Below, in pieces: positions 169-43,028 of a DNA stretch of 43,028 nt. Numbering within the stretch: the first letter of the stretch is position 1; each line of letters begins with the position of its first letter. A program made the position numbers and the translations under genes. The notes below the pieces were generated by a model. That model did not search any database. It was not told the origin of the DNA and was given only the letters and a program-made list of their open reading frames with translations. The stretch comes from a virus: IMG/VR virus record IMGVR_UViG_3300042549_003563, positions 1-43,028 of that record, one strand, 5' to 3'.

Positions 169-270
169 AAAAAAACAAGCCCCGCACAGCCGCATAATGC
201 AGCGTAAGGGATCAGCTTACCAGTCAGCACCTTGCCGACATTGCACGCTATCCTTGTGCTGTGTGCGGGG
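169..270 (-). ncRNA. Multibranched structured RNA ending in a terminator-like U-tract
   Basis: On the minus strand the outer stem pairs CCCCGCA (270-264) with TGCGGGG (186-180), extended by CAGC/GCTG across a 2-base bulge. Inside are AGCGT/ACGCT (249-245 with 205-201), a hairpin GTCGGC-AAGGT-GCTGAC, and a hairpin GTAAG-CTGATCC-CTTAC. The outer stem is followed by CTTGTTTTTTT (179-169). It could be a terminator with an unusually large branched head or a small processed RNA. It is not a tRNA: there is no T-arm motif and no 3' CCA. Pairings were found by eye. Confidence 0.5.
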
Positions 271-282
271 AGTTGTTGTGCC

Positions 283-459
283 TTACCGTGTCATGCCCCG
301 CTCTACCGCTGCCAGAATCGCCGCCTGCCGCGTTGGTCCGATCTTGTCCAGCCGATCCATTAGCGACTTCGGGATGCGTACCAAACAGGTCACCGCATCC
401 GGCTTGTGCTTGCGAGGTCTTCCGACCTTTTGCGTTGTCACTGGAATCATTTTGTTCAT
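283..459 (-). CDS. Small ribbon-helix-helix-like DNA-binding protein
   Basis: 58 residues. After a basic stretch (VGRPRKHKPD) comes a segment typical of CopG/Arc-type ribbon-helix-helix repressors: a short beta strand (AVTCLVRIP) followed by two helices (KSLMDRLDKIG, TRQAAILAAVERG). The start chosen is the ATG at 459, about 8 bases after CAGGA; an ATG at 468 is possible but sits almost on that site. A CA-repeat leader (CACACACA) precedes it. It is the last gene of the P1 operon before the structured RNA at 169-270. A role as phage transcriptional regulator is inferred from fold and size only. Confidence 0.65.
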   Translation of the reverse strand: MNKMIPVTTQKVGRPRKHKPDAVTCLVRIPKSLMDRLDKIGPTRQAAILAAVERGMTR

Positions 460-497
460 CGAAATCATCCTGATTGTGTGTGTGTGAAAATTGCCCG

Positions 498-752: not shown

Positions 753-764
753 GTGTGTGCCCCC

Positions 765-812
765 TGTGTGAAAGATTGAAAATGAACCCCTGCCGGTTGA
801 CGGGGGGAAGTG
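765..812 (-). promoter_or_regulatory. Hairpin plus CA-rich leader, copy A
   Basis: 48 bases matching 1007-1054 at 44 positions. On the minus strand it contains a GC hairpin (outer CCCC/GGGG, inner CCG/CGG, loop TCAAC), then TTCATTTTCAATCTTTCACA, then the AGGGGG ribosome-binding site of the next gene. The T-run is weak for an intrinsic terminator, so it may act as a partial terminator, a processing site or a translation-control leader. Confidence 0.6.
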
Positions 813-991: not shown

Positions 992-1006
992 TGTGCGTTC
1001 CCCTTG

Positions 1007-1054
1007 TGTGTGAAAGATTGAGAATGAACCCCCGCCGATTGACGGGGGAAAGTG
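1007..1054 (-). promoter_or_regulatory. Hairpin plus CA-rich leader, copy B
   Basis: Second copy of the module at 765-812. The hairpin pairs CCCCCG (1048-1043) with CGGGGG (1034-1029), followed by TTCATTCTCAATCTTTCACA and the AAGGGGA ribosome-binding site of the 991-833 gene. Conservation of hairpin and CA tract between two adjacent intergenic gaps suggests function or a recent duplication. Confidence 0.6.
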
Positions 1055-32854: not shown

Positions 32855-35377
32855 TTATTCGAAAGATACTTCATCGGCAGCCATCAGGTCAAACAATGTC
32901 GGTGCCGTCAACTCCCGTTCCGCACGCTCGCAGAATGACACGCCGAATTTCCAGTAGTCCGGATTCAATTCAATTCCCCAGCCTTTACGCTTCATTTTAA
33001 TCGCGACATACGGCGTGGAATGAACGCCGCCGAACGGATCAAGAATCACGTCGCCGGGATTGCTATATCGCTCAATCAGCCTCTCAATCACGTCCAACTG
33101 CAACGGGCAGACGTGGTTCTCTGTTGTCTTTCGACTGAGTTCCGTGTTCAACGTTTTGATTCGCACGATGTCAGTCCAGATGTCTGGATTATTGCTGACA
33201 GGTGCGAATAACATCATCGACGCCGGAAGATGTCCATGTTGTTCAACGGACTCAGTGAACGCAACATGATCATGGTAGTTGTAGTTGTTTTCCTTCGCAT
33301 ACCTTCGCCACCAATGATAGATATCCGAAGTCCCCATTCCGGCCAACATCTTCGGCTGAACCAACTCATTGCCATCGCTACGCCAGATCCCGCTCGCGTG
33401 AATCTGCCACCGGCTTCGGCTGTACTCCGCTTTGTCTTTGGTCACAGGATCGGGACCAGAAGCCGTCTGGTTCGGTGACATGCTCGGTTCCCACTTGCGA
33501 AACAGCAAAACGAACTCAGTCGAACCACAGCCCATCTTCGTGCTGTCTTTGCCGTTCTCCGTGTGTCCCAGCCGATAGGTCTGCGCGTTCTCCCGGACCA
33601 CATCGGTATCAATCACAATCCTGCCCATATAAACAAAACCGCCTTTACGAAATGCCGCAACGGTCTTATCTGAGAACTCATTCACGCTGTACATTGCGTG
33701 ACCTGTCATCGTGCCGTATTGGATACGATCCTTCGTATGGATTGCCGCAACTCGCCCCGGCTTCAGGACTCGGTACAACTGCGGAACAAGAAAATCGAAC
33801 TGGGCAAAGAATCCATCATCGCCCTGATTATGCCCAAAGTCGTTGTAGTTCGGCGAATACTCGTAATGATCGGAAAACGGAATACTGGTCACAATTTCGT
33901 CAACGCAATCATCGGCCCACGATGTCAATTCCGTCACGCAATCATTATTGATTGCTCTGTACAGCTTACCGCTGACCTCGTGTCGTGGAACGCCCATGCC
34001 TCTCTCGAATTTCATTTTCAATGCCTCACCTGAAAGCCCATGTTCCCGAATAATTGAACGCATCTGCGTAGCCAGCTCCTCATGCCGTCGCCACTTCTGT
34101 TCCATAATCATCTTCGTGTCATACTGTGTGTCAGCGTACACAATATGGATTTCCACCGTCTTCTTTTGCATGAACCTGTGAATGCGGTGAACAGCCTGAA
34201 TGAAATCGTTAAACTTATCCGTTGGCCCAATGAAAATAGCCTTATTGCAATGCCTCTGGAAATTACAACCGCTGCCCAACAACTGCGGTTTGCTGCTCAG
34301 AATCTGCAATCGACCATCGGCGAAATCTCCGACGATTTCTTCACGCACTTCCAGGTCCTGAGTCCCGTACACAGCCCGTGAATCTGGGAATGACTTTTGA
34401 ATTTCATGCCGTTCGGATTCCAGATAGTGCCAGATAATCCAGTGATCGTCTGGCGACTGTTCCACAATCTGAACAGCTTTCGCAATGCGTGTGTCAGCGG
34501 TCTTTCGCCGCTGCTTTGAAACGTGCTTAATGCCGCCGCCAGGCTTCTCGAACAACAGAGGCTGCCCAAAGCTATCGACAAACGCTCCAGGCTTTCCCTG
34601 ATCGCCTTCGACCTCATGCCAGTAGACCTGCATCTCCGGCATATCATAGCCAGCATCGTCGTACCCCAGATCGCTCGGAGAGTTCACGAAGACTGCCCAC
34701 GATGCAACCCACAGCCAAAACCGCTGCTCTTCGTGCGGATACAGTTGCAGGTTCCCGGCCTTCTTAGAATCCCTCTGGAAGAATCGCGTCATCGCCTGCC
34801 CGCGGTCCATCACGCCTAAAAAATCGGCGTAGTTAATCAACTCAATAAACTCATTCGGTGAAGGTGTAGCGGTCGCAACAAAACGATACTGTACTTTGCG
34901 AAACAACATAGCAAATTGCTGTGTCGTCTTTGTGCCGTAAGATCGAAGACAGCTCGCTTCGTCCAGCGTCGCCCCAGCGAACTGTTTTGGATCGATGTCG
35001 CCATCCCTTACCCGCTCATAATTTGTGATTATAAATGGCGTGTCAGCCTCCGCAACCTCCGCATCTGTCCGGCAGTATTTGACTACCATCCCCATGCGTG
35101 GCCCGTCGTTACGGGTGAATTCCTGCCGAACTCCCAGCGGTGCAATGATTAGCACCTTGTCACCAGTGTGCTCGTGAATCCACTTGCAAATCTGCAATTG
35201 CTGGACCGTCTTGCCCAGCCCAAACGATTCGAACAACGCCGCTCGGCCTTTGCGGATCGCCCATTGCACGCAATCAATCTGATGCGGCAAAAACCAGTCA
35301 GGACAATCTGACTGCGGAACAAATCCATCCATTACCACCGGCGGCATTTTAGACCGCAAAAAATCCTGATAATCCAC
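32855..35377 (-). CDS. SNF2-like helicase fused to DNA methyltransferase
   Basis: 840 residues, GTG start behind GAGAGGGGG. Residues 25-445 are an SF2/SNF2-like helicase: SFGLGKT (51-57), DEAS (139-142), ATATPSP (168-173), QAVHRIHRF (394-402). Residues 470-830 are an amino-methyltransferase: motif IV TSIPFSDHYEY at 497-507 in place of the usual SPPY/DPPY, motif I LDPFGG at 779-784, and ENHVCPLQLDVIERL (753-767). Likely methylates adenine or cytosine amino groups as it translocates, protecting phage DNA. No nuclease domain is visible. Confidence 0.88.
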   Translation of the reverse strand: MDYQDFLRSKMPPVVMDGFVPQSDCPDWFLPHQIDCVQWAIRKGRAALFESFGLGKTVQQLQICKWIHEHTGDKVLIIAPLGVRQEFTRNDGPRMGMVVKYCRTDAEVAEADTPFIITNYERVRDGDIDPKQFAGATLDEASCLRSYGTKTTQQFAMLFRKVQYRFVATATPSPNEFIELINYADFLGVMDRGQAMTRFFQRDSKKAGNLQLYPHEEQRFWLWVASWAVFVNSPSDLGYDDAGYDMPEMQVYWHEVEGDQGKPGAFVDSFGQPLLFEKPGGGIKHVSKQRRKTADTRIAKAVQIVEQSPDDHWIIWHYLESERHEIQKSFPDSRAVYGTQDLEVREEIVGDFADGRLQILSSKPQLLGSGCNFQRHCNKAIFIGPTDKFNDFIQAVHRIHRFMQKKTVEIHIVYADTQYDTKMIMEQKWRRHEELATQMRSIIREHGLSGEALKMKFERGMGVPRHEVSGKLYRAINNDCVTELTSWADDCVDEIVTSIPFSDHYEYSPNYNDFGHNQGDDGFFAQFDFLVPQLYRVLKPGRVAAIHTKDRIQYGTMTGHAMYSVNEFSDKTVAAFRKGGFVYMGRIVIDTDVVRENAQTYRLGHTENGKDSTKMGCGSTEFVLLFRKWEPSMSPNQTASGPDPVTKDKAEYSRSRWQIHASGIWRSDGNELVQPKMLAGMGTSDIYHWWRRYAKENNYNYHDHVAFTESVEQHGHLPASMMLFAPVSNNPDIWTDIVRIKTLNTELSRKTTENHVCPLQLDVIERLIERYSNPGDVILDPFGGVHSTPYVAIKMKRKGWGIELNPDYWKFGVSFCERAERELTAPTLFDLMAADEVSFE

Positions 35378-35389
35378 AGCGTCCCCCTC

Positions 35390-35983
35390 TCAATGTGTGT
35401 TCCGAAAAACCCGCCGCCAAACAACCCCAGCCCCCACAATAGCCGCCACAATCACCGCCGGAATAAACCCCGACGGCTCAGGGACCGGCGTCCCTCGTAA
35501 TGTCCCCGCGTAGGCTGATGTAGCCACAGTGCCGCTCGATGTCGTCAGCGCTCCGCCTGTCGTGCCTGCTGGCGATACCCAGACGATGCTTCCGGCCAAA
35601 GACTCAACACTCAGCCATGACCTGCCCGCTGGCAGATGCACAGACAACCCCGACCAAGATGATTGCAGGCCGCCAGTATAAACCAGCTCTGACCGGCTGC
35701 CAGGTGTCCGATCAATCCAGAGCGATATTGACGGCGTGCCTGTCGTCTGCAGCCACCATGGTTGAGCGATGTTAAGTGCGACCTGCTCAAGTCGTGCCGC
35801 CGTAGCCAAGTCAATAGACTGACTTCGGATCTCGCCTGCCCGGATCTCAGCAAACGCAAACGACGTCCCAGGCGTTTGCTGGTAAAGGATCGTGTCCGCC
35901 TGTGCCGTGCTGGCCATCGCAACAATCGACAACCAAAACACCCGCTGCACCAGCCAATCAGCCAACGATGCAAAAAACCGCAT
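35390..35983 (-). CDS. PEP-CTERM sorted extracellular protein
   Basis: 197 residues from the ATG at 35983, behind ACACAAGGGGACACACA. N-terminal signal peptide ending at AQA (27-29). The mature part is beta-rich (SISLWIDRTPGSRSELVYTG). The C-terminus has all three parts of a PEP-CTERM signal: Pro-Glu-Pro at 168-170 (TPVPEPSGF), a hydrophobic helix 172-189, and Arg190, Arg191 and Arg194. Such tails are cut by host exosortase and the protein released or attached outside. Rare in phage genomes; it implies an exosortase host. Confidence 0.85.
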   Translation of the reverse strand: MRFFASLADWLVQRVFWLSIVAMASTAQADTILYQQTPGTSFAFAEIRAGEIRSQSIDLATAARLEQVALNIAQPWWLQTTGTPSISLWIDRTPGSRSELVYTGGLQSSWSGLSVHLPAGRSWLSVESLAGSIVWVSPAGTTGGALTTSSGTVATSAYAGTLRGTPVPEPSGFIPAVIVAAIVGAGVVWRRVFRNTH

Positions 35984-35995
35984 TGTGTGTCCCCT

Positions 35996-36018
35996 TGTGT
36001 GTGTGTGTGTGTGTGTGT
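35996..36018. repeat. (GT)11 dinucleotide microsatellite
   Basis: A T followed by eleven GT units, lying directly before the ribosome-binding site of the PEP-CTERM gene. Longest member of the CA-repeat leader family of this genome. Tracts of this length can change by replication slippage. Confidence 0.9.
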
Positions 36019-36770: not shown

Positions 36771-36971
36771 CTACCGACTCCACTTTCTGCCACCGATTCG
36801 CCGCTCCGTGATCGTCTCGCGTGTCCACGCGTCATAAATTCGGATTGTGTGATCCACGAATCCCATCCCAAATTCTCGCACCGCCTGACGTTTTGCAGTT
36901 CGCAAATCGTCACTCACCTCGATGCTGTCGTGCTGGCTGATGCTGCTGTGTACTACTGTTGCTCTGAGCAT
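36771..36971 (-). CDS. Hypothetical small protein (66 aa)
   Basis: ATG at 36971 behind GGCACACAACACACACATACAGGACC, another CA leader. MLRATVVHSSISQHDSIEVS, then TAKRQAVREFGMGFVDHTIR; an alternating beta/alpha small protein. No family recognised. A hairpin CCCC...GGGG lies in the 76-bp gap upstream. Confidence 0.6.
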   Translation of the reverse strand: MLRATVVHSSISQHDSIEVSDDLRTAKRQAVREFGMGFVDHTIRIYDAWTRETITERRIGGRKWSR

Positions 36972-37047
36972 TGTTTTGGTCCTGTATGTGTGTGTTGTGT
37001 GCCAGAAACCCCGCCGGACGATCCAGCTGGGGAAAGAATGAAAGACC

Positions 37048-37293
37048 TCAGGCGATAGCCGCAGCGAATTCATCGGCCACATACCGAAAGCAATATGCAG
37101 TCTCTTTGCTTACGGTTACCTTGTCTGCAACCGCAATCACTCCGGCGTGAATCCAGCCCCTTTTTCCGCCAGAATTTCGTTCGCAGAGAACGCCCACGTT
37201 GCCATCAGAATCGACCACAACTTTTGCCCGACTGTCTTCAATCTTTGAAATATTCGCTGCAATCTTTGCCGCCAGTGTGTCGCGTGTGCTCAT
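37048..37293 (-). CDS. Hypothetical small protein (81 aa), first gene of P2
   Basis: MSTRDTLAAKIAANISKIED is helical; the rest is a beta meander (KVVVDSDGNVGVLCERNSGG) ending in AYCFRYVADEFAAAIA. AAGGGATCAGGACA precedes the ATG. The leader contains CA repeats. No family recognised; probably early-expressed. Confidence 0.65.
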   Translation of the reverse strand: MSTRDTLAAKIAANISKIEDSRAKVVVDSDGNVGVLCERNSGGKRGWIHAGVIAVADKVTVSKETAYCFRYVADEFAAAIA

Positions 37294-37409
37294 TGTCCTG
37301 ATCCCTTGTGCTGTGTGTTGTGTGTGTTGTCCCCGTCAGACTTGTGTTGTCTGATGGGGGAAGTGTAGTTTCATTATCGGAAATTGCAAGCCCGATTCCG
37401 AAGAATTTC
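37294..37409 (-). promoter_or_regulatory. Promoter P2 with 5'-terminal hairpin leader
   Basis: TTGCAA (37389-37384), 16 bases, TACACT (37367-37362). The 50-bp block 37360-37409 matches P1 (1265-1314) at 42 positions. The transcript would begin with a strong hairpin (37359-37349 with 37341-37331: CCCC, one mismatch, TCAGAC), then ACAACACACACAACACACAG and the ribosome-binding site. Confidence 0.7.
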
Positions 37410-37446
37410 CGTAAGAATAATTAAAATTCATGAAAACCCAGTATTT

Positions 37447-37545
37447 TTACAAGTCCGGATCAATCCAGAGTCTGACAGCAACCTCAGCGAAAACGATAGC
37501 AGCCGCCACAAATCCAACCAACTCCGCCAACTCAATCCAGCCCAT
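37447..37545 (-). CDS. Tiny single-span membrane protein (32 aa)
   Basis: ATG at 37545 behind a textbook AAGGAG seven bases upstream. Product starts MGWIELAELVGFVAAAIVFA and continues EVAVRLW before a short acidic end: one transmembrane helix with Glu residues inside. Shares 14 bases with the preceding gene. The last gene before P2; the 37410-37446 gap holds the distal P2 flank. Confidence 0.65.
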   Translation of the reverse strand: MGWIELAELVGFVAAAIVFAEVAVRLWIDPDL

Positions 37546-37911: not shown

Positions 37912-39615
37912 TTAAAACGGAACCCAATCCTCATCCACTTCCGCCGATCCTGTCACCTCGACAGGCTCCATAGTCTCTGGAATCTCGTCGTCAAATTCAA
38001 CCCGGACAATCTTCTGCCACTTGCCCTCCGGCACCACCCATAGCCGCGAAGCCTGACGACAGGCTCCGCTGTGCATCATCAGCAACGCCCTGACCACGGT
38101 ATCCGGTACCGGTTGCAGGCTTCGACATTGCCACCAGCCGACAGCTTTCTGCCGTGCGAAACCCTCGTGCTCAAAACACACCCACTCACGTACAACGGTT
38201 GCCGTCAAATTACCTTCGCCACGACTTTCCGGATAGCAGTTGTAGGTGATGCAGAGACTCGGTATCGCGTCAGGATCTCGCTTCTTTTCGTGGAGGTGCC
38301 AATCCACCGAAGTCACCACGTACAACTCCGGCTCCGGCTTGCCGGTGATCTTGCTTTCGGTGTCTGCTGTGCCCTCGTGATTGACGGGGAACGCCCAGCC
38401 GCACTCAGGGCAAAACGCGGACCGTGCCGCACACTCAATCTGACACTTATCACAGACCTTCGTGCCGCCCGCTCCATCACGCTCAATCGTCTCGCCTTTT
38501 GTCCAACCCTTGCCCCCGGTATACCGGCCGTAATCTGGTGAATCCAGACTTCCGTGCCTCGCGATATTGCCGCCGAAGTCCAACACCAAACAATCTTCCT
38601 TGCCTTCTGCTTTCCTCAATCCTCGCCCGACAATTTGAGCGAACAGACCTGGCGACATTGTCGCCCGAAGAACAGCCAACGCATCAATCCGAGGTGCATC
38701 AAAACCAGTCGTTAGCACATCGACGTTTACGCACCACCTCAAGGCCCCGTTCCTGAAGTCAGACAGAATCCGGCTGCGTGTCATCGTGTCCGTTTCGCCG
38801 GTGACGACTTCGACCGGCTCGCCCGTCATCGCCTGCAATGTCGCCTGAACCTGTTCTGCGTGGGCAATGCCAGCACAGAAAACCAGAATTGAACGACGGC
38901 CCGCACATGCCGAAACGATCTCGCCACAAGCCGCCAGGACATTGCTATCACCGGCAAACACCCGTTCCATTTCCGCTGCTACAAACTCACCGCCGCGAAT
39001 CGAAACCCGGCTTGTGTCAACCGTGCCGTCAGCGGGTTTGTTCGTCAGCGCGGACAGATACCCTTCGCTGATCAGAGTCCCCGTCATCGACTCGTAGCAG
39101 ATGCCGCTAAACAGCTTATCCTTTCCAGCAATGCTGCCCTCTCCCGTGCGGAACGGAGTAGCCGTCAAGCCCACCGCAAACAGCCGTTGATTGACTCGTC
39201 GCAGGTCTGCCAGGAACTGGCCGTACATGCTTTCCGCATCGCCTGAAATCAGGTGGGCTTCGTCGATCAGAATCAGCCCTCTCGCGCCGAAGTCCAGAGC
39301 CTTTCGATAGACGGATTGAATCCCGGCACAAATGACGGCAGAATCGAAGTCATGCCGACGAAGGCCAGCCGAATTCAGCCCGACCTGCACGCCTGCCATC
39401 GCCGCTATCTTCTCAGCGTTTTGAACGAGTAGTTCTTTCCGGTGTGCTAAGCACAAAACCCGCTGATTGAACTCCAACGCCTGCCGAATCAGCATGCCAA
39501 TTACGACCGACTTGCCCGCTCCTGTCGGCAGTACGATCAGCGGATTCCCTCGCCCGCTGGCCATCCATTCCCACGCCGCATGATTCGCAGCGTCCTGGTA
39601 ATATCTCGCCTGCAC
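37912..39615 (-). CDS. DEAD/DEAH helicase, RadD-like, with zinc ribbon
   Basis: 567 residues from a GTG at 39615, chosen because AAAGGGA lies 5 bases upstream and the frame before it runs through a terminator hairpin. Motifs: PTGAGKS (30-36), DEAH (118-121), GLTATPFR (149-156), TGFDAPR (303-309), QIVGRGLR (327-334). A zinc ribbon follows, CDKC...CPEC (388-405), as in RadD/YejH. Likely remodels branched or stalled DNA during replication/recombination. Confidence 0.87.
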   Translation of the reverse strand: MQARYYQDAANHAAWEWMASGRGNPLIVLPTGAGKSVVIGMLIRQALEFNQRVLCLAHRKELLVQNAEKIAAMAGVQVGLNSAGLRRHDFDSAVICAGIQSVYRKALDFGARGLILIDEAHLISGDAESMYGQFLADLRRVNQRLFAVGLTATPFRTGEGSIAGKDKLFSGICYESMTGTLISEGYLSALTNKPADGTVDTSRVSIRGGEFVAAEMERVFAGDSNVLAACGEIVSACAGRRSILVFCAGIAHAEQVQATLQAMTGEPVEVVTGETDTMTRSRILSDFRNGALRWCVNVDVLTTGFDAPRIDALAVLRATMSPGLFAQIVGRGLRKAEGKEDCLVLDFGGNIARHGSLDSPDYGRYTGGKGWTKGETIERDGAGGTKVCDKCQIECAARSAFCPECGWAFPVNHEGTADTESKITGKPEPELYVVTSVDWHLHEKKRDPDAIPSLCITYNCYPESRGEGNLTATVVREWVCFEHEGFARQKAVGWWQCRSLQPVPDTVVRALLMMHSGACRQASRLWVVPEGKWQKIVRVEFDDEIPETMEPVEVTGSAEVDEDWVPF

Positions 39616-39691: not shown

Positions 39692-40174
39692 TCAGAACGG
39701 CGAACTGCCGAACGGGTTCGGCTTGCCGCTTGCCGCTGTCGGTTCGCCGGTCGCTGTCACCGTGACAGGTGGCACAACACCAGTCTGTTTCGGCTTGTAG
39801 CCCTTGACCTCATTCCGTAACTTGCCCTGATACTCTGACACGTCGACCACGGCCGTCAGTGTTCGATTGTGGAGCTGTTCGCTACGTTCCGGTGTCAGCA
39901 CATTCACCGCCCGACAAATAGCCGACAACGTCCCCTGTGCAATCTTCGCCGCCTGTTCGTTTTTGTTCCAGAGGTTCAACCTGTCGTACAGTTTTCGGCC
40001 TTTGAACTGGCCTTCGACAATCTGCAAAACCATGTTGAGCAGCGAGCCATCGCCCTTGCTTGTCGGCTTCTTTTCCGACTCCACGATTATCACCTGATAC
40101 TCGCCTTTCGGAATCGCCGATGCCGGTTCATTCGGCTCCACTCTTGCCGCATCAAATCCCATCAAATCAGCCAT
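39692..40174 (-). CDS. DUF669 single-strand DNA-binding-like protein
   Basis: 160 residues. SAIPKGEYQVIIVESEKKPT, GSLLNMVLQIVEGQFKGRKL, and LNLWNKNEQAAKIAQGTLSA, then ICRAV, are the DUF669 pattern. DUF669 genes typically sit next to Sak4-like recombinases and are thought to act as ssDNA-binding partners. The flexible C-terminus ends PNPFGSSPF, similar to SSB tails though not acidic. Overlaps the ATPase by 8 bases. Confidence 0.85.
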   Translation of the reverse strand: MADLMGFDAARVEPNEPASAIPKGEYQVIIVESEKKPTSKGDGSLLNMVLQIVEGQFKGRKLYDRLNLWNKNEQAAKIAQGTLSAICRAVNVLTPERSEQLHNRTLTAVVDVSEYQGKLRNEVKGYKPKQTGVVPPVTVTATGEPTAASGKPNPFGSSPF

Positions 40175-40970
40175 TGGTCACCTCCGTTTTTTTGCTTGAA
40201 CCATCAACCACAATGCCACCAATATTCGCCGCCGGAACAGCCTGAGTGAAATACTGGGCGTAAGCCGCCCAACTGAAGTCAATCGTCTCCGGCATTGTCA
40301 GCCTGTTTTTCGCCAACGCTCCCGGCGTCTCTGTGCAACGAATCAGACGTTCGCCAGATCCTCCGGCGATTGTCCGCTCCTTGCCAAAACCTTCGTCCTG
40401 CTTTCTCGTGTGAACGCGATAGGACGCGAACAGGACTTCATCGCACCATTCTTGCAGCGTCGCCGCTGCCGTCTCATGCAGTGCAGGCTGATACCTGTCG
40501 TAACTGTCAGTCATCGGATCGGTGTACTTTTTGACTGCTGTGTGGGCCAGCAAAATCACACCCAGTTTCCGCTCGCATTCAGTCCGCAACCAGTCCAGCA
40601 TTGTCAGGATCTTGTCCCAGTATGCCATTGCTGATTTGTATCCGGCACCGTAGCCGATATCGCCGATCGTCGGCTTACCGGCCTCTCGTGCCACCTCAGC
40701 ATGAATCAGGGCTTCCAGCCAGTCGACCGAATCAATTGCAACCCACTTGAAATCGTGCTTTTGGGTTGCCAAAAACGTCAACGCTTCCATCACCTGTTCA
40801 AGCCGGATCAGATGCTCAGTCTTCGCCACGTCGATGTCGTTCAACCCGTCTTCCAGATTCAAAAACAGCACGTCCGGAGCCTGTGCAGCCCACGACGACT
40901 TGCCGATGCCATGCGTGCCGTACAACAGCACCCTTCGCGGTACAATCTTCTTCCCTCGTGTAATCTTCAC
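40167..40970 (-). CDS. Sak4-like RecA-fold ATPase
   Basis: 267 residues. The GTG at 40970 overlaps the RusA stop as GTGA and follows AGGGGAG, so it is preferred over longer upstream reads. Walker A GTHGIGKSS at 18-26, Walker B KWVAIDSVDW at 75-84, and ILLAHTAVKKYTDP later match the AAA_24/Sak4 family of phage single-strand annealing ATPases. Probably works with the DUF669 protein in recombination-dependent replication. Confidence 0.87.
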   Translation of the reverse strand: MKITRGKKIVPRRVLLYGTHGIGKSSWAAQAPDVLFLNLEDGLNDIDVAKTEHLIRLEQVMEALTFLATQKHDFKWVAIDSVDWLEALIHAEVAREAGKPTIGDIGYGAGYKSAMAYWDKILTMLDWLRTECERKLGVILLAHTAVKKYTDPMTDSYDRYQPALHETAAATLQEWCDEVLFASYRVHTRKQDEGFGKERTIAGGSGERLIRCTETPGALAKNRLTMPETIDFSWAAYAQYFTQAVPAANIGGIVVDGSSKKTEVTNG

Positions 40971-41392
40971 GGCGTGTACTCCCCTGTTAATGTGTCGGTG
41001 ACAAAAACCACTGTCGAGCCATGCTGGCCCCACACTTTTCTGACAATCAATTCCCATACCACTGCATCGTCAGGCCAGCACTCGCTCAGCCCGTCCAGTA
41101 TCGCTTTCGCGATGTTGTCGCCGTCCGGCTTTTGCGTGTGTGGCTGTCCATCGTGCTTCAACTTTTTCGCTTTTGTCCAGCTTTTCGGCATTTCGAAAAC
41201 GCATCCAATTGTGACCCGGACCGGCCCTTCAAGTTTCGGCTTTCCAGCCGACAACTTAGCCGCAATACTGCGGTAAACCATGCCAGGCGACTTTTGCGGA
41301 ATGTAGTGCCTCACGCCCCATTTTGTCCGCACGCTACGTGCTCGTGGCATACCCGCAGGCTGCCCGAAGATTGTGATGTTCCACGTCGTCAT
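40967..41392 (-). CDS. rusA: RusA-like Holliday junction resolvase
   Basis: 141 residues. IFGQPAGMPRARSVRTKWGV starts the fold; KPDGDNIAKAILDGLSECW carries Asp90, Asp92 and Asp100, and PDDAVVWELIVRK gives Asp108/109, the RusA metal-binding acidic set. Resolves branched DNA before packaging. Coupled to both neighbours (ATGA, GTGA). Confidence 0.9.
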   Translation of the reverse strand: MTTWNITIFGQPAGMPRARSVRTKWGVRHYIPQKSPGMVYRSIAAKLSAGKPKLEGPVRVTIGCVFEMPKSWTKAKKLKHDGQPHTQKPDGDNIAKAILDGLSECWPDDAVVWELIVRKVWGQHGSTVVFVTDTLTGEYTP

Positions 41393-42405
41393 GCGGTCGC
41401 GTCCTCCAGTGCTTCGCGAACCATTCCCCGCCAATCTACGTCGCCATGCATTTGCAAGAGCTCACGCAATGCGGCCTTCAATTCTTCGAACTTCGTCAGC
41501 CTGTCACTGACGGATAAAACAAGTGGTTTCATCCTGTCGCTGACGGAGTAAATGACGGGCTTTCGATCTTCTTCAACCGCAGTATTCAACGGCAAAATAT
41601 CGGCCTCAATTGCCGCCTCTGTTGTCGCCAGCTCTTGTTCGTGATCGTCCCACATTTTGGCGATACGAGCGATGCGAGTCTGTTCGGCTTCTGCTACCTG
41701 CCGATCCTGTTCGGCCTGTCTTGCAGCCGCTTCAGTGCGGTTTCTTTCCGCCAGTAACTCCGCAATGCTTTCCGCTTCAATTCGTCGCCTTTCGGCCAGC
41801 AATTCAGCCTCTCGGCGGTCGCTCTCTGCTTTGGCCCGTCGCAGCTCCTCCAATTCCGCACGCTCAGCCGCTCGCTGTGCTTCCTCCTGACGTTTGACGT
41901 TTTCCGCCTTCACCCGCTCAAACGTGAACGAGGTCCATTCCAGTGCTGTCAGTGACCCCGCTTCAGCCTCAGGAAACACCCCGGCATTCTCCGGCCATGA
42001 CATTCGCCGGACTGCCACCCGTTCGACTCGCTCAGCCTCCGCTGCCTGTCGCTGCTGTTCTTCGTGCAATGCCTCTTGATGCTTCAAGTGCATTTCAACC
42101 GGCTCAATGATCGCCCCGATTTCCTTCGCGACTCCGTTGACCGTGTCGATCCACTTTTTCGCTTCTTCATTCAACAGCTTTCGCCGCTTGTCGATGCTGG
42201 TCCGCAACTTCACGACGGCCTTTCGGCCCTCTGTCACCCGCTTCAGACCATGCACTTCAACTGTCAATTCTTTCAGCGGTCGCACCGTTGCCAGTGCATC
42301 AGCCTTGACCTGATACAGTTCTGTTAACTGAGTCTCGCGACTTGTTTCCGCTGGTGGCTGCTCCACCTGTTCCGTGTATCCAAATGCGTCTTCAATGTCG
42401 TTCAC
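41389..42405 (-). CDS. Coiled-coil protein, DUF1351-like
   Basis: 338 residues. LKRVTEGRKAVVKLRTSIDK, then RRKLLNEEAKKWIDTVNGVA and EIGAIIEPVE, resemble the helical core of DUF1351 phage recombination-region proteins. A long charged coiled coil (about 165-245, RAKAESDRREAELLAERRRI) follows, then a duplicated YSVSDRMKPL/LSVSDRLTKF. Placed with RusA/Sak4/DUF669, so a recombination-accessory role is likely by context. Confidence 0.65.
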   Translation of the reverse strand: MNDIEDAFGYTEQVEQPPAETSRETQLTELYQVKADALATVRPLKELTVEVHGLKRVTEGRKAVVKLRTSIDKRRKLLNEEAKKWIDTVNGVAKEIGAIIEPVEMHLKHQEALHEEQQRQAAEAERVERVAVRRMSWPENAGVFPEAEAGSLTALEWTSFTFERVKAENVKRQEEAQRAAERAELEELRRAKAESDRREAELLAERRRIEAESIAELLAERNRTEAAARQAEQDRQVAEAEQTRIARIAKMWDDHEQELATTEAAIEADILPLNTAVEEDRKPVIYSVSDRMKPLVLSVSDRLTKFEELKAALRELLQMHGDVDWRGMVREALEDATA

Positions 42406-42599
42406 TGCTCTGTCCCTTTTTGTGTTTTTGACTTATCAAACAACTCACCACGCAACACCTTTACGCCCCCGGGGGCGTGAATCGCAATCCGAAAAGTTGA
42501 ACCGTCTTTTGAGACGACCTTCACCCGGATCTCGTCACCTATACAAATTTCTTCCTGAGCCTTTCGGCCCAACACTAACCAGTTTTTTTCGTGCTTCAC
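42402..42599 (-). CDS. csrA: CsrA-family RNA-binding regulator
   Basis: 65 residues, the length of CsrA (61 in E. coli). LVLGRKAQEEICIGDEIRVK, then VVSKDGSTFRIAIHAPGGVK and VLRGELFD, align along the whole CsrA fold: LTRK-like start, IGD, VRI-like FRI, AP, and Arg50 in the position of the RNA-binding Arg44. CsrA dimers bind GGA motifs near ribosome-binding sites. Coupled by ATGA at both ends, upstream of the recombination genes. May reprogram host or phage mRNA. Confidence 0.87.
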   Translation of the reverse strand: MKHEKNWLVLGRKAQEEICIGDEIRVKVVSKDGSTFRIAIHAPGGVKVLRGELFDKSKTQKGTEQ

Positions 42600-43028
42600 A
42601 GCCTCACCCCATGACCGCCAACACCCGTCAGCGCCTCAGTACTGCATACCGGCATTTCCCAAGTACTGTACCGGCCCGCTGACCGTCGCTCATGTTCGTC
42701 CGGTGTCCACTCCCGGCGGATCTCCGCAGCCCGTTCCGCAATCTCAGCGGGTGTCGGATCAGTAATGCGAAGTGAAACCAGTTCACGCCGCATCTGCCAA
42801 ACGCTTCGGCCTGTCAAGTTGTCCTCAGCCATAAGGGCGATGTCCTCGCCCTGTTGTGGCGTTATCGGTCGACACCATCGCCACTCACTCACCGGCTCGC
42901 CGTCTGGCGTTGCCGCCAGAACTGTCACCCGTGTTTTTCCATCGTGTCGAATGCCAACCACATAGCCGCAGGTCCAAGCCGCTTCAGGCCTGCCGTCCTT
43001 CTCGGCTGATGCCAAAACATAGTCGCCC
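42596..43028 (-). CDS. Junction-spanning hypothetical gene (main part)
   Basis: Continues from the ATG at 144 (left copy) to the TGA at 42596; full length about 149 residues. CGYVVGIRHDGKTRVTVLAA and GEPVSEWRWCRPITPQQGED suggest an SH3-like beta barrel N-terminal half, followed by a helical DPTPAEIAERAAEIRREWTP segment. ATGA-coupled to csrA. No family recognised. Confidence 0.75.
   Translation of the reverse strand, partial: GDYVLASAEKDGRPEAAWTCGYVVGIRHDGKTRVTVLAATPDGEPVSEWRWCRPITPQQGEDIALMAEDNLTGRSVWQMRRELVSLRITDPTPAEIAERAAEIRREWTPDEHERRSAGRYSTWEMPVCSTEALTGVGGHGVRL
42902..43028. repeat. Terminal direct repeat, right copy
   Basis: Identical to 1-127; see the left copy. Removing one copy gives a 42,901-bp circle. 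Confidence 0.95.

Follow-up and report, generated by a model that had tools for sequence, protein, structure and literature searches.

A csrA-family gene in the recombination operon of a probable planctomycete virus

That phages carry csrA genes is already documented. Sobrero and Valverde counted such genes in 30 of 2,517 phages (PMC7366521), and Campa et al. described many among the phages of GenBank and IMG/VR, proposed a function in anti-CRISPR or general host manipulation and reported that phage csrA presence correlates with host csrA, with suppression of host functions as the suggested outcome (PMC8450108). Knockdown of csrA in coliphage PTXU04 leads to smaller plaques (PMC11879866), Vibrio phage J26 encodes csrA (PMC12038007), and the plasmid-borne homologue RsmQ exerts global control in Pseudomonas (PMC9928087). 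Earlier reports of phage csrA genes mainly concern phages of Pseudomonas, Vibrio and relatives.

The gene described here is a stand-alone phage csrA, just as those of Pseudomonas phage F116, the Vibrio phages including J26, PTXU04 (gp28) and the members of PHROG 9500. Its product falls into a different sequence group, however: E. coli CsrA as the query matches 85 of the 50,697 phage records in INPHARED, whereas tblastn with the present protein retrieved no matching record from the same collection. Furthermore, the gene belongs to a Sak4/RusA recombination operon, and the viruses that carry it are probably planctomycete viruses. RsmQ (pQBR103) is likewise a CsrA protein of a mobile element but resides on a plasmid in Pseudomonas, and a global effect on the host has been shown for RsmQ.

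Identity and genomic setting of the phage csrA gene

The window, that is the whole stretch of 43,028 nucleotides that was analyzed, has the following features in and around the operon.

1–127, no strand: direct terminal repeat of 127 bp, exact copy of 42902–43028
42596–43028, minus strand, ATG at 144 across the repeat: first operon gene, 149 aa, no assigned function
42402–42599, minus strand: csrA, 65 aa, GTG start (PF02599, phrog_9500, PDB CsrA, AlphaFold, dN/dS)
41389–42405, minus strand: charged protein of 338 aa immediately after csrA, weak phrog_674 match, no assigned function
40967–41392, minus strand: RusA-like Holliday junction resolvase (PF05866 at 1.5e-21 for the ORF 40967–41434)
40167–40970, minus strand: Sak4-like ssDNA annealing protein, AAA_24 (PF13479 at 4.3e-45 and phrog_124 at 4.8e-43 for the ORF 40167–41057)
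39692–40174, minus strand: single-strand DNA-binding protein, DUF669 SSB (PF05037 at 3e-20, phrog_6015 at 1.9e-36)
37912–39615, minus strand: ResIII/DEAD-type helicase (Pfam and PHROG profile matches)

Every recognized gene lies on the minus strand, for which gene calling was done, and the plus strand at 42402–42599 holds no open frame. Translation of the minus strand at this position yields VKHEKNWLVLGRKAQEEICIGDEIRVKVVSKDGSTFRIAIHAPGGVKVLRGELFDKSKTQKGTEQ. That this 65-aa protein belongs to the CsrA family is near certain. The profile search proposed in an earlier note, which had described a full-length CsrA homologue with its key arginine (Arg50) kept, gave a clear match to PF02599 (E=2.4e-16, 59.9 bits as compared with a curated cut-off of 27 bits) that spans residues 8-57 of the protein and positions 2-51 of the 53 in the profile. 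Further matches, to the PHROG 9500 family of CsrA-like regulators (phrog_9500, 2.9e-11) and to CsrA/RsmA chains in the PDB (7e-7), bear out the first part of this description, and the gene is the sole PF02599 match within the whole record. In the AlphaFold monomer (mean pLDDT 84) strands 2-4 and the helix are assigned, the best 15 PDB matches found with Foldseek for this model are CsrA, RsmA and RsmE only (rmsd 0.7 for 2bti_A), and the predicted structure agrees with the CsrA fold of strands 1-5 followed by a C-terminal helix.

In CsrA, R44 and L4 are critical RNA contacts (PMC7652899; PMC3791407). Once the numbering is shifted by six, L10, R12, V48 and R50 of the phage protein are identical to L4, R6, V42 and R44 of E. 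coli CsrA, so that the second part of the description, the kept Arg50, also holds, while K13 and L53 conservatively replace R7 and I47. The critical RNA-contact residues are thus retained. What the phage protein has in common with the CsrA/RsmA/RsmE family is the full-length domain, the fold and these contact residues; identity with E. coli CsrA, P. aeruginosa RsmA and RsmE, on the other hand, amounts to about 30-38% across the aligned domain. It differs from E. coli CsrA by G51 for E45, G11 for T5 and L49 for H43 as well as by six additional N-terminal residues ahead of strand 1, and it has VLRGEL where the family has VHREEI.

The terminal repeat is exact and relatives read through the junction, so that the contig closes to a circular genome of 42,901 bp with an arbitrary cut point. 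Because the 149-aa gene that starts at 144 spans this junction, csrA is the second gene of its operon. The earlier placement of csrA at the head of a recombination operon was therefore right as far as the operon is concerned, which comprises RusA, the Sak4-like protein, the DUF669 SSB and the helicase, but not with regard to the leading position, which is held by the 149-aa gene. Both the start and the stop of csrA share four nucleotides (GTGA) with the adjoining gene, and these overlaps on both sides are a sign of coupled translation. Elsewhere on the minus strand (32855–35377) an 840-aa protein is encoded in which a SNF2-type helicase is fused to an N6/N4 DNA methylase domain and which is 97% conserved in relatives.

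Relatives, selection and probable host

Four related viral contigs carry csrA at the equivalent position, with 83-95% identity. One of them, G2, has the early module in common with the present virus but head and structural genes that are unrelated or very distant (25% for the portal protein), and csrA therefore travels with the early module. The comparison of these two viruses reveals clear module exchange. A csrA-like sequence inside the operon, nearer to Sak4, also occurs in L032 (Sak4 71% identical) and in L031 (Sak4 81% identical); it can be counted as a csrA of the operon in the former and probably also in the latter, where it ends at the contig edge. A different virus, L013, encodes a CsrA with 48% identity within a longer ORF, and at L013:8001-8490 the reading frame of the CsrA domain continues into a C-terminal extension of about 110 residues.

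The csrA core is under strong purifying selection. At a synonymous divergence of about 0.4-0.7 between copies, its dN/dS is 0.04-0.09 and thus in the same low range as for RusA and Sak4. Given this selection together with the kept contact residues, a working RNA-binding role of the protein appears very likely. No csrA lies near any of the 40 planctomycete Sak4 loci, and the gene is therefore to be regarded as an accessory gene of this virus lineage.

The host phylum is probably Planctomycetota. Sak4 relatives are present in 40 of 294 genomes of this phylum, with identities of up to 50% and mostly with the same SSB-helicase neighbors; for comparison, Sak4 matches were found in 22 of 299 genomes of Pseudomonadota, the phylum of Pseudidiomarina, the near-full-length ones reaching about 42%. 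The VLRGEL sequence at the end of strand 5 is common to multi-copy planctomycete CsrA paralogs, which rank with the nearest sequences retrieved (identity of up to 49-51% across the domain, with [VI]LRGEL). Planctomycetota have their own csrA in 73 of 199 genomes, with up to 17 copies. Ten to 17 PF02599 copies each are present in five of these genomes (G060, G081, G193, G206 and G164), and the paralogs of several csrA-rich genomes have [VI]LRGEL just as the phage protein. Literature searches retrieved neither a report on PF02599 expansion in Planctomycetota nor a Csr study for this phylum. A CsrA tree of 22 short sequences, in which 12 of the 19 inner branches stayed open, gave no donor for the phage gene.

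Proposed role and its alternatives

We consider the phage protein to be a functional CsrA that is made early and joins or overrides host Csr control by binding host messages, and put the probability of this reading at about 0.6. The protein would fold as the usual small dimer and bind GGA-containing RNA by the surface that strands 1 and 5 of both subunits are expected to form. Coupled translation within the recombination/replication operon would ensure that it is made early, and it would then most likely join or override the regulation exerted by the host Csr system. Binding of host messages at their ribosome-binding sites may shift translation such that phage replication is favored; metabolism, motility or defence are candidate host functions to be affected. 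Such host-directed action is plausible and our best guess. Counted against it are the accessory status of the gene, the loss of E45, T5 and H43, the N-terminal extension and the fact that the host is only inferred, so that a specific host target cannot be given either.

The alternative that fares best places the targets on the phage genome itself: the protein may mainly control phage early genes by masking GGA in CA-rich leaders. It goes back to the earlier note, in which GGA next to start codons in such leaders was seen as a set of possible CsrA targets. The sites concerned are the following.

283–459, minus strand: 58-aa gene ahead of the structured RNA described below, no Pfam match, its start being one of the noted leader sites
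460–484, minus strand: leader of the gene at 459, AATCAGGATGATTTCG-ATG
753–777, minus strand: leader of the gene at 752, CACACAGGGGGCACACAC-ATG, without GGA
992–1016, minus strand: leader of the gene at 991, CACACAAGGGGAACGCACA-ATG
35984–36008, minus strand: leader of the gene at 35983, ACACAAGGGGACACACA-ATG
36972–36996, minus strand: leader of the gene at 36971, ACACATACAGGACCAAAACA-ATG
37294–37318, minus strand: leader of the gene at 37293, CACAAGGGATCAGGACA-ATG, with two GGA

All six positions (459, 752, 991, 35983, 36971 and 37293) are true minus-strand gene starts, the CA-rich leaders are real, some of them recur along the genome, and most have GGA at the ribosome-binding position; the leader at 752 lacks GGA in the present virus (W). 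CsrA binding usually coincides with the ribosome site, which speaks for control of the phage's own genes, as does the leader at 37293, in which both GGA (GGGATCAGGACA) are kept in W, G2, G3 and G4 and which, judged by its sequence, is the best remaining candidate for a CsrA site on the phage side. The assignment of these leaders as CsrA targets nevertheless finds no support in the comparison with csrA-free planctomycete prophage loci. With GGA counted up to 20 nt from gene starts set by a simple purpose-made caller, 39 of the 59 early leaders from csrA-bearing viruses contain GGA, as compared with 273 of 484 from csrA-free loci (p=0.17), counts that are partly non-independent as the 59 leaders stem from three mutually related viruses. 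The same lack of excess applies to ANGGA (15/59 versus 124/484, p=1.0) and to leaders with two or more GGA (12/59 versus 81/484, p=0.47). Over the sense strand, ACARGGAT with at most one mismatch is found 27 times as compared with 43 in shuffled sequences, and ANGGA 170 times as compared with 258, so that both stay below expectation. In orthologous leaders it is the AAGGGG-type run at Shine-Dalgarno distance that stays, whereas GGA varies and is replaced by GGGC. The leader of the start at 144, for example, which reads AAAGGGACG in W, has lost GGA in G2 (AAAGGGGCG), and GGA is also absent from the leader of the start at 35377 in G4. The Shine-Dalgarno signal itself includes GGA, and at the phage leaders it looks like a component of ordinary ribosome-binding sites. 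Control of early phage genes as the main function is thus unlikely.

Intergenic blocks recur at 752–827, 992–1068, 1208–1355 and 37312–37450, with more copies in relatives. They comprise CA-rich leaders, promoter-like TTGCAA/TATACT (at 1294–1267) or a GC-rich hairpin, and look like shared early promoters/leaders.

A further possibility is that CsrA regulates its own operon, as E. coli CsrA does (PMC7652899), in this case via an RNA element located between the 58-aa gene and the csrA operon.

171–276, minus strand: conserved structured RNA of about 105 nt with a U-run end, terminator/attenuator-like
250–257, minus strand: ACAAGGAT, exact ACARGGAT, the core of the CsrA SELEX consensus and the only exact one on the transcribed strand

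The element has the sequence CCCCGCACA...UGUGCGGGG followed by U5-U7. Each of the five viruses with this region and csrA conserves it, the copy in G1 being shortened by the contig end. Its U-run stops about 25 nt ahead of the first ATG of the operon, a distance that is too short for a usual promoter, and the operon is therefore probably read through the element. Two folds of nearly equal energy are predicted, one of which exposes GGAU in a loop such that the ACARGGAT site can occupy the loop of a GCAC/GUGC hairpin. It is in the fold of lowest energy, however, that GGAU is paired, and the loop of the alternative hairpin comprises 9 nt, not 6. In addition, G2, G3 and G4 have ACATGGAT at the site, and a single exact 8-mer is at chance level (1.9 expected). 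Changes at variable pairs keep pairing but are all one-sided, and both folds fit equally, so that support for the structure is weak. Neither is there a CsrB-like array of GGA loops, and the element may be a mere terminator of the preceding gene. Autoregulation through this RNA is accordingly quite improbable, and the specific version of an attenuator in which binding at ACANGGAU flips the folds and sets read-through into the recombination genes is to be judged as highly improbable. A CsrB/RsmZ-type decoy RNA was likewise considered for the element and rejected on account of its single GGA, the missing array of GGA loops and the lack of an Rfam match. Rfam contains no family for this RNA, and a covariance model built for it matched in the same viruses only; run without a positive control, it had no match in 149 Planctomycetota genomes.

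It is very doubtful that the protein acts as a mimic or competitor that forms mixed dimers with host CsrA or titrates its partners and has no RNA set of its own. The probable hosts do encode one to many CsrA proteins and the fold includes the dimer interface, but the RNA-contact residues are kept and under purifying selection, and a pure competitor could dispense with Arg50. The notion of a passenger gene that has no role is hardly credible and largely refuted by the dN/dS values, and the gene also sits at the same place in five viruses, even though most relatives of the recombination module lack csrA.

A csrA gene that is under selection in probable planctomycete viruses, resides in an early recombination module and faces hosts that can be rich in CsrA paralogs extends a known pattern and adds an unusual host range to those described for phage csrA. 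Whether a global translation regulator is captured by phages could be put to a natural test with this system.
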